From: Candidatus Altimarinota bacterium
GTDB lineage: Bacteria > Patescibacteriota > Gracilibacteria > UBA4473
Assembly: GCA_021736215.1 (NCBI GenBank)
Contig: JAIPGI010000007.1
Location: forward strand, 1-55,072
DNA length: 55,072 bases
Direction of reading: 5' to 3'
The notes beneath the pieces are model-generated. The model searched no databases and was not told the origin of the DNA. It was given only the letters and a program-made list of their open reading frames with translations. The translations under genes were made by a program, and so were the position numbers. This document shows positions 2,785-5,211 of this stretch, piece by piece (position 1 is the stretch's first letter; each line of letters opens with the position of its first letter).

Positions 2785-2811
2785 CACAAAAAGACCAAGC
2801 ATACTTGGTCC
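2785..2811 (-). terminator. Terminator facing left, beyond the rnj remnant
   Basis: On the minus strand GGACCAAG-TATG-CTTGGTC is followed by TTTTTG. The only gene reading this way is RNase J, whose present stop is at 3238, over 400 bases away. The remnant of an RNase J 3' end at 2858 lies just before this terminator, which suggests this was the original rnj terminator. Confidence 0.75.
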
Positions 2812-2857
2812 CTCCTGAAATACAGAATACTTGATACCTAATACTTAATACTTGATA

Positions 2858-2903
2858 CTAAATTACCACTTCAACCAATTGTTCTTTTTGCGAATTTTTA
2901 CAA
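2858..2903 (-). pseudogene. Remnant of an RNase J 3' end
   Basis: Read on the minus strand the end translates to KNSQKEQLVEVVI and a TAG stop. The intact gene ends QKFRKEPLVEIVI with TAG at 3238. The DNA aligns without gaps over roughly 45 bases from the stop codon (ATTAC-ACTTCAACCAAT against ATTACTATTTCAACCAAT). Upstream of this the similarity stops and no further reading frame is present. Confidence 0.7.
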
Positions 2904-2935
2904 TCAATAATATAGCGTCTTTTTATAAAAAAATG

Positions 2936-2963
2936 TTGACAAAATTTATTTTTTATATATAAA
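2936..2963 (+). promoter_or_regulatory. Strong promoter of the small Cys-containing gene
   Basis: TTGACA (2936-2941), 16 bases, TATAAA (2958-2963). Transcription would start near 2970, at or just before a GTG codon (2971) that is in frame with the downstream ATG (2989). Confidence 0.8.
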
Positions 2964-2988
2964 GCATAGTGTGTATTCTTTAAATATT

Positions 2989-3237
2989 ATGGAGAAAGAA
3001 AAAATACCATTCCCGAAACCTGGATGTGATTTATCAGAAGGAATTTTGGCCTTGAAAAATGGAAATATTTGCCCGAATTTACATGCTTGTACGCAGGGAG
3101 TTAGATTTAGTGTGAATAACAATTTAGCGATGGATCCTCACAAGAAAAATTGTGTCATCGTTCAACAACAAATACTTGGAAACACAAAAACGATAGAAGA
3201 TTTAACGAAGCCAGTTGAGATCTGTTGTGATCTTTAA
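2989..3237 (+). CDS. Small cysteine-containing protein, unknown function
   Basis: 82 residues from ATG 2989; a GTG at 2971 in the same frame would add six residues and would make the message leaderless. Six cysteines (GCD, CPNLHAC, NCV, ICC) suggest metal binding or disulfides. There is no signal peptide or membrane segment and no family is recognised. The stop codon at 3235-3237 abuts the stop codon of the convergent RNase J gene at 3238 with no base between. It has its own strong promoter and lies exactly between the intact and the duplicated rnj 3' ends, so it may have arrived as an insertion. Confidence 0.65.
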   Translation: MEKEKIPFPKPGCDLSEGILALKNGNICPNLHACTQGVRFSVNNNLAMDPHKKNCVIVQQQILGNTKTIEDLTKPVEICCDL

Positions 3238-5211
3238 CTAGATTACTATTTCAACCAATGGTTCTTTTCTAAATTTTTGGTAAAAGAATTTTTGTGCAGA
3301 TTTTTTCAAAGCTTCTTCTAATGCTTTCTCTGGGCGAGAAGGATCAAAGTTGCGCTCGAAAACATTTTTCATTTCGCTCCCGAGTTGTGTAAAAATTTCG
3401 TGTTTTGTATCCATATAACGGAACCCGCGGGAACGAATATCAATTTTTTGAACCTTTCCAACATTGTGTTTTACCGTCATAAAAATAGCGCCACCTTCTG
3501 CCATAAGAGTCCTTTCAGCAAGAATATGTTGTCCGAGTTTTTCACCAAGCTCTATCATCACGTCGCTTGCGGGGATAGCTTCTTTGTCCGTCATAAGGCG
3601 AACACCTTTTTCGTTTATAACGGCACCTTGTCCATTTTTCATAATCAAAGTTCGTTCTCGAGCAAATCCAAGTTCCTTAATGACCATCTCTTTGTGTCCA
3701 TGGCGCATATAGAGTTCTCCATGAATAGGCGCGAAATATTTCGGATTCAATAAAGTTGTCATCAGTTTTACTTCCTCAGCGTGTCCATGTCCAGAAACAT
3801 GGGTATCCAATTGTTTATTATCAATCATGTGTACCCCGATTTCTGAAAGATTATTCATCACTGATACAATAGCGAGTTCATTTCCCGGGATAGGAGAAGA
3901 AGAAAAAACAACGGTGTCATCTGGGCGCAACTTCACGTCTTTGTGTGTCTTCGCCGCCATACGAGTGAGAGCTGCTAATTCCTCTCCCTGGGATCCAGTT
4001 GAAAGAATCAATACCTTTCGAGGATCCATGGTATCGGCCTTGCGTCCCATAGGCTGAATCGTTGATTCTTTGTATTTGAGATAGTTCAATTTTTTGGCAA
4101 TAACAAGATTCCGTTCCATGGAACGTCCAGAGAGAAACACAGTTCTTCCTTGCTCTTCGGCGGTTTGCACGATTTTTCCAATTCGACCGATGTTGCTGGC
4201 AAAAGTCGTTACAATAAGTCGCCCTGGGGTATCACGAACAATTTTTGCTAGCTGATCTTCAATAAATGTCTCAGACAAAGAGTGTCCAGGTCGTAACGCA
4301 TTGGTAGAATCTACCATGGCAAGAATTACCCCTTCGGCTCCAATTTTGGAAATACGTCCGAGATCGGCAGGTTGATCATCAGAAGGGTTATAATCAATTT
4401 TGAAATCCGAAGTATGGATGATGTTTCCGTATGGTGTTTTGGCAACAATGCCCACTCCATCAGGAATGGAATGGTTGATATGAAAAAATTCAAACTCAAA
4501 CTGTCCCAAGCGGATATGAGACTTTGGATTGATTTCCATAATGTTGAGCTTGGAACTAACTCCAGATTCTTCACTATTTGCCAAAATAAGTTCTTTAGTG
4601 AGTCGAGTGGCATACATTTGAGGGAACCCTAATTCTTTGGCCAAGTAGGGGACGCCTCCGATATGGTCGAGATGTCCATGAGTAAAGATAACTCCTCGAA
4701 TTTTTCTTTTATTTTGAACAAGGTAAGAAATATCAGGGACCAAGACATCGACTCCCAGATGTTCTGGACTCGGGAAAAGAATCCCCATATCTATGATAAC
4801 GATGTCATTTCCCCACTCGAGGAAACACATGTTTTCTCCAACCTGTTCAAGTCCTCCCAAAGGAACAACGCGGATATCCCCTTTCTTTCCAGAGTTCAAG
4901 AAATTTGTCGGATGAAATTTTTCTTTTTTTGCAAGAGTCGGTCTTCCAATGGTTGGATTATAATCATTTCTTGATGATTTAAACCCAGTTCTCGGAGCAC
5001 CTGAACGCTGCGGAGCATACGGTCGATTTTGGTTATCTCGACGAGGAGGAAGTACCTTTTCCGTTTTTTGAGGGATAGGGGGCTGGGTGGAAGAATGAAT
5101 AATCGGTTGTGTTTGAGGGGGCTGCGTGGAAGCAGGTGAAGTATTATCTGATGCAGGAGATTTGATAAAACCCTCCCCTTTGAGCCATTGGCTCAATTTA
5201 TCGGTTGCCAT
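3238..5211 (-). CDS. rnj: Ribonuclease J
   Basis: 657 residues. The metallo-beta-lactamase core carries THGHLDHIGG (His178, His180, Asp182, His183), HTSDFKID, and the beta-CASP motifs STNA and SGHGHAEE; this is the 5' exonuclease/endonuclease that processes and decays RNA in the cytoplasm. The C-terminus includes the GSQGEE and IHGE segments of the family. Unusual is an N-terminal extension of about 110 residues rich in Pro, Gln, Ser and Arg before the core begins at GDIRVVPLGG; it is probably disordered and could bind RNA or partners. Its 3' end seems to have been rebuilt: a remnant of a second 3' end and the likely old terminator lie beyond the small gene at 2989-3237. Confidence 0.95.
   Translation of the reverse strand: MATDKLSQWLKGEGFIKSPASDNTSPASTQPPQTQPIIHSSTQPPIPQKTEKVLPPRRDNQNRPYAPQRSGAPRTGFKSSRNDYNPTIGRPTLAKKEKFHPTNFLNSGKKGDIRVVPLGGLEQVGENMCFLEWGNDIVIIDMGILFPSPEHLGVDVLVPDISYLVQNKRKIRGVIFTHGHLDHIGGVPYLAKELGFPQMYATRLTKELILANSEESGVSSKLNIMEINPKSHIRLGQFEFEFFHINHSIPDGVGIVAKTPYGNIIHTSDFKIDYNPSDDQPADLGRISKIGAEGVILAMVDSTNALRPGHSLSETFIEDQLAKIVRDTPGRLIVTTFASNIGRIGKIVQTAEEQGRTVFLSGRSMERNLVIAKKLNYLKYKESTIQPMGRKADTMDPRKVLILSTGSQGEELAALTRMAAKTHKDVKLRPDDTVVFSSSPIPGNELAIVSVMNNLSEIGVHMIDNKQLDTHVSGHGHAEEVKLMTTLLNPKYFAPIHGELYMRHGHKEMVIKELGFARERTLIMKNGQGAVINEKGVRLMTDKEAIPASDVMIELGEKLGQHILAERTLMAEGGAIFMTVKHNVGKVQKIDIRSRGFRYMDTKHEIFTQLGSEMKNVFERNFDPSRPEKALEEALKKSAQKFFYQKFRKEPLVEIVI

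Follow-up and report, generated by a model that had tools for sequence, protein, structure and literature searches.

A probable gene-acquisition scar at the 3′ end of the RNase J gene in a Gracilibacterium

The 3′ end of rnj occurs twice

The window (the whole 55,072-nt stretch of DNA analysed here) is contig C10 of a 1.01-Mb genome with a GC content of 39.5%. It encodes RNase J on the minus strand (rnj, 3238–5211, 657 aa; Pfam RNase_J_b_CASP and RNase_J_C, TIGR00649). The present 3′ end of this gene (3238–3280, minus strand), which we argue below is very probably a replacement copy, encodes KEPLVEIVI-stop. The final ~40 nt of the gene, whose stop lies at 3238, recur at 2858–2900 on the same strand, and the copies share 26 of their last 30 nt. 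Compared over window positions 2857–2888 and 3237–3268, which lie 380 apart, the two copies agree at 28 of 32 positions. The displaced copy, read from 2900 to 2858 on the minus strand, retains the last ten codons as KEQLVEVVI-stop, and its frame is broken just upstream by one extra base. An earlier note on this DNA had described this minus-strand repeat as reaching 2903; the repeat is real and extends to ~2900.

The remnant is followed on the minus strand by a TATCAAGTATTAAGTATTAGGTATC tract (2819–2857) and an intrinsic terminator (2788–2815), in which 12 pairs precede a T run (2815–2788). Both have counterparts behind rnj in a relative described below: a homologous tract follows the rnj stop there, and the terminators align. 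We take the two features to be the original sequence after the rnj stop and the original rnj terminator. Between this terminator and the present rnj stop at 3238 we found no other, which bears out the earlier observation that a left-facing terminator follows the remnant and not the present stop, although its position is 2788–2815 and not 2785–2811. The CCCGGGTTC..GAACCCGGG hairpin in the neighbouring stretch 2721–2781 is one of well over a dozen family members in the genome.

We scanned the genome for similar repeats by calling 969 open reading frames (ORFs) of at least 70 aa and comparing the last 30 nt of each with the next 1.5 kb. The rnj pair scored 26 of 30 matches at +380. When the gene pairings were shuffled ten times, no value fell at 23–29 and about one per shuffle reached 30/30; these perfect scores, which were not removed, are taken to be a gene paired with itself or with a stretch holding its own end. 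Among the real pairs one alone scored higher, from a short ORF on contig C11 that contains a 42-nt tandem repeat, and rnj is the only one of the 969 gene ends with a tail repeat that encloses a separate gene. A scan of 973 gene ends in a genome of the same genus, G001, gave no comparable tail repeat at a clear protein gene. The top match there was a tRNA-linked array, followed by matches in repeat-like or short doubtful ORFs.

A convergent orphan gene separates the two ends

Between the two ends lies a plus-strand gene of 82 residues with six cysteines, convergent with rnj (2989–3237), whose TAA stop adjoins the rnj TAG (3238–3240). It is preceded by a promoter-like TTGACA-16-TATAAA arrangement (2936–2963, plus strand), with TTGACA at 2936–2941, a 16-nt spacer and TATAAA at 2958–2963. 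We read these elements directly from the sequence; our promoter scanner requires T as the last −10 base and so missed TATAAA. Both the promoter and the abutting Cys-containing gene are present as first described. The promoter seems native to the clade, since other parts of the genome also have AT-rich stretches of the TTGAC type. The gene is probably expressed from this promoter of its own and, because no terminator lies between the two stops, its transcript and that of rnj should overlap tail to tail.

Cysteine accounts for 7% of the 82-aa ORF, compared with 0.9% in long genes, and the GC content of the ORF is 35%. Its codon score of −0.015 exceeds the −0.158 (s.d. 0.063) obtained for shuffles of its own sequence and resembles that of other short ORFs. 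Judged from its sequence, the product would be a small Cys-rich protein of no assigned family. We found no significant relative in its own genome, in 60 relatives, or in 353 genomes of the class and 380 of the phylum; no significant match in GTDB and IMG/VR contig scans, phages or plasmids; and none in Pfam, PHROGs, NCBIfam or the PDB. Two weak matches were set aside, one in G002 (E 0.025) that runs antisense within a larger gene and one in G684 (E 0.006 over 39 residues, with 380 genomes searched) that is at chance level. A structure model of the protein was unusable (pLDDT 46). The gene is so far an orphan. The earlier note had proposed looking for it beside other gene ends with duplicated termini; no second copy or homologue appeared anywhere searched.

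A relative carries the unoccupied site

The earlier note had suggested looking for an empty site in related genomes, and an orthologous one is present in G001. In that genome the single rnj end is followed directly after the stop by ATAGTATTAAGTATTACGTATCAGG and a terminator, and it aligns to the remnant side of the window. When the remnant, tract and terminator (2905–2680, minus strand) were compared with the 973 gene ends of G001, the rnj end scored 84 and the runner-up 41; with the remnant left out, the rnj end still ranked first of the 973 (54 versus 40). Because this alignment ranks first both with and without the remnant, the remnant side is the original rnj 3′ end, and the net addition is therefore the interval 2858–3237. 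None of ~28 other relatives inspected has the unit or a comparable tail repeat. The rnj tail has been preserved as elsewhere in the family.

The same layout could have arisen if the duplicated arrangement were ancestral and G001 had lost the unit by recombination between the tails. A 40-nt repeat could loop the unit out in this way, and the comparison draws on one genome of the same genus. However, neither remnant nor unit is found in family members outside the genus, and the two tails differ from each other at 4 of 30 nt while the present tail differs from G001 at 7 and the remnant at 6 (all counted by eye from the sequences). We consider such a loss highly unlikely. Relative to the family, EIVI is derived in the present tail and EVVI is kept in the remnant; changes specific to the remnant are CCA to CAA and the one-base insertion. 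These differences are consistent with a replacement tail whose source was slightly diverged, but 30 nt cannot decide this, and four differences do not suffice to polarise the tails.

A local duplication or replication slippage could also have copied the rnj tail, with the DNA in between becoming, or already holding, the 82-aa gene. Such events do occur at the end of rnj: in G047, which belongs to another family, a second copy of the rnj 3′ end and of ~40 nt beyond it lies ~165 bp downstream (L037, L159). Against this explanation, neither the empty site of G001 nor any of the others contains the 82-aa region; the DNA between the tails must therefore still have had an outside source, and we regard local duplication as quite unlikely.

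Insertion at the rnj 3′ end with replacement of the tail, leaving the mechanism aside, is very probable. The G001 site upholds this part of the earlier note's account, in which the unit arrived at the 3′ end of rnj and carried or copied a new end; its likening of the unit to integrating elements has no such support, for reasons given below. The locus offers a clean example of a reduced-genome Gracilibacterium gaining a gene with the target gene unharmed.

Displaced gene ends elsewhere in the genus

Other displaced gene ends are present in the window and in the genus. An intact 5S rRNA gene (724–837, Rfam) has behind it a partial copy of its 3′ half (~856–921), which scored 65 against a shuffle maximum of 34. 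This remnant and, after it, an apparent original terminator occupy 856–990, at the opposite end of the rnj convergent interval. In the same region, a 42-nt direct repeat (948–989 and 1509–1550) flanks a 107-aa gene at 1053–1376, and a related palindrome lies near 660–680. Elsewhere in the genome, a CRISPR-like array runs from C17:119952 onward (L058); its repeats end in AATTTCTACTTTTGTAGAT and so resemble those of type V-A (Cas12a) arrays.

At ~10 of the 50 GIY loci tested across genus and family, a single GIY-YIG gene (~85 aa) is flanked by an intact tRNA on one side and by a partial copy of that tRNA on the other. Such loci are located at C5:67854–68254 (L088), C13:143223 and C12:15817 and, in G001, at C6:83913–84600, C6:190305 and C1:13401; L173, L180 and L188 are further cases. 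At the G001 tRNA-Met, two GIY-YIG units stand in tandem. Our literature searches turned up no account of such GIY-YIG units beside tRNAs for the Candidate Phyla Radiation.

Many tRNAs are also followed by structured elements of ~110 nt, with a GAACC-loop-GGTTCG hairpin and further stems, that terminate in the final 14–18 nt of the preceding tRNA together with its CCA. Among others, these elements are found in G000 at C4:55804 (Tyr), C5:81117 (Thr) and C7:56277 (Arg), and in G001 at C6:23875 (Glu), C6:114993 (Tyr), C3:143954 (Gly), C1:13786 (Gln) and C1:195030 (Lys). The hairpin motif occurs 53–73 nt behind ~9 of 45 tRNAs in the window's genome and ~15 of 42 in G001, where it often repeats after 171–195 nt. 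The one element searched against Rfam (Thr) had no convincing match. A covariance model of the elements, built from an automatic alignment, caught just one hairpin and was dropped.

Displaced 3′ ends recur in the genus, and it is conceivable that they have a cause in common with the rnj unit; we saw no sequence shared between that unit and the tRNA or 5S cases. That the genus hosts a recurrent entry of very small units at the 3′ ends of tRNA genes, 5S rRNA genes and rnj strikes us as improbable. In such a process a unit would consist of one small gene or just the structured ~110-nt core, would carry in a new gene end while the old one stays behind, and would rely on recombination machinery acting in trans; if the process were real, the rnj unit would be its protein-gene case. 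Taken with the tRNA and 5S cases, the rnj case points to gene 3′ ends as sites at which these genomes tolerate the entry of very small insertions.

Origin of the inserted segment

As to mechanism, we favour recombination anchored in homology over site-specific integration. The specific proposal, insertion through homology within rnj with illegitimate joining at the far end, is tentative, and we would give it slightly less than an even chance. Once the lineage had separated from that of G001, a segment of ~380 bp comprising an rnj tail, the convergent 82-aa gene and its own promoter would have entered rnj at its 3′ end, ~40 nt short of the stop. With the tail brought in by the segment, RNase J would have regained a normal C terminus, and the old tail, tract and terminator would have been displaced by 380 bp, a step that the empty site supports. 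The most likely source of the segment is a related locus in which rnj was followed by a small convergent gene; a fragment of such a locus may have recombined by homology within rnj at one end and been joined illegitimately within the old tail at the other. Donors of this kind are plausible because in G012 (99 aa) and several other relatives an unrelated small gene immediately follows rnj in convergent orientation. The G012 gene was itself considered as a homologue of the 82-aa gene and rejected, as reciprocal searches of both genomes gave no match.

Against the donor model, the 353 class and 380 phylum genomes contained no donor locus with the 82-aa gene. Outside its poorly aligned N-terminal part, rnj is ~63–80% identical to its G001 counterpart in 90-nt blocks, and this divergence profile has no break near the 3′ end and gives no positive sign of imported DNA. 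Unbroken identity to G001 is what would be expected if the donor came from the same lineage group.

A site-specific event would give an identical layout. The unit could be a tiny non-autonomous integrative element that has the rnj 3′ end as its att site and uses a recombinase in trans, the two tails being attL and attR. Elements at gene 3′ ends leave just this arrangement, in which the gene is restored and the tail displaced; single-gene GIY-YIG units with gene-end duplications exist at tRNA genes of the same genus, and two tyrosine recombinases are encoded in the genome. Yet these are its only two, both lie elsewhere, on other contigs, and the unit encodes no recombinase, which argues for insertion by homology. 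Against a site-specific element, the 380 bp contain no integrase and the unit has no second copy and no homologue. Moreover, no other protein gene end has such a scar in either of the two genomes scanned, and no sequence common to the rnj unit and the tRNA units was seen. The integrating element that the earlier note had invoked is, on balance, rather unlikely.

Comparison with known systems

Prophage e14 in icd of Escherichia coli is an integrative element at the 3′ end of a protein gene. As with e14, the resident end of rnj appears to have been replaced by an imported copy with mostly synonymous differences, and the old end moved to the far side. Unlike e14, the rnj unit is 380 bp long, with one small gene, no integrase and no known att recombination. 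It has the direct repeat of the gene end at both borders, the restored gene and the unoccupied site in a relative (G001) that characterise integrative elements; it encodes no site-specific recombinase, just the 82-aa ORF without a family match, and the same element was not found in other genomes (353 of the class, 380 of the phylum). CIMEs are cis-mobilisable elements that are flanked by att sites and lack an integrase. The rnj unit resembles them in its att-like flanking repeats and absence of recombinase genes, but CIMEs are much larger. It also resembles the GIY-YIG units of the genus, in which one small gene lies between an intact gene and its partial copy. Those units, however, target tRNA genes and encode a GIY-YIG nuclease, a domain for which the 82-aa protein has no Pfam match, and share no sequence that we saw with the rnj unit.

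We know of no demonstration of homology-facilitated illegitimate recombination in this clade. This process (PMC3240628) combines homologous joining on one side with arbitrary joining on the other and would give the rnj layout with the old tail left behind. The rnj unit departs from the comparison in that no donor was found; the divergence profile of rnj has no break. As a scar of gene acquisition the rnj unit is real and has good support, and it is probably ordinary in kind.
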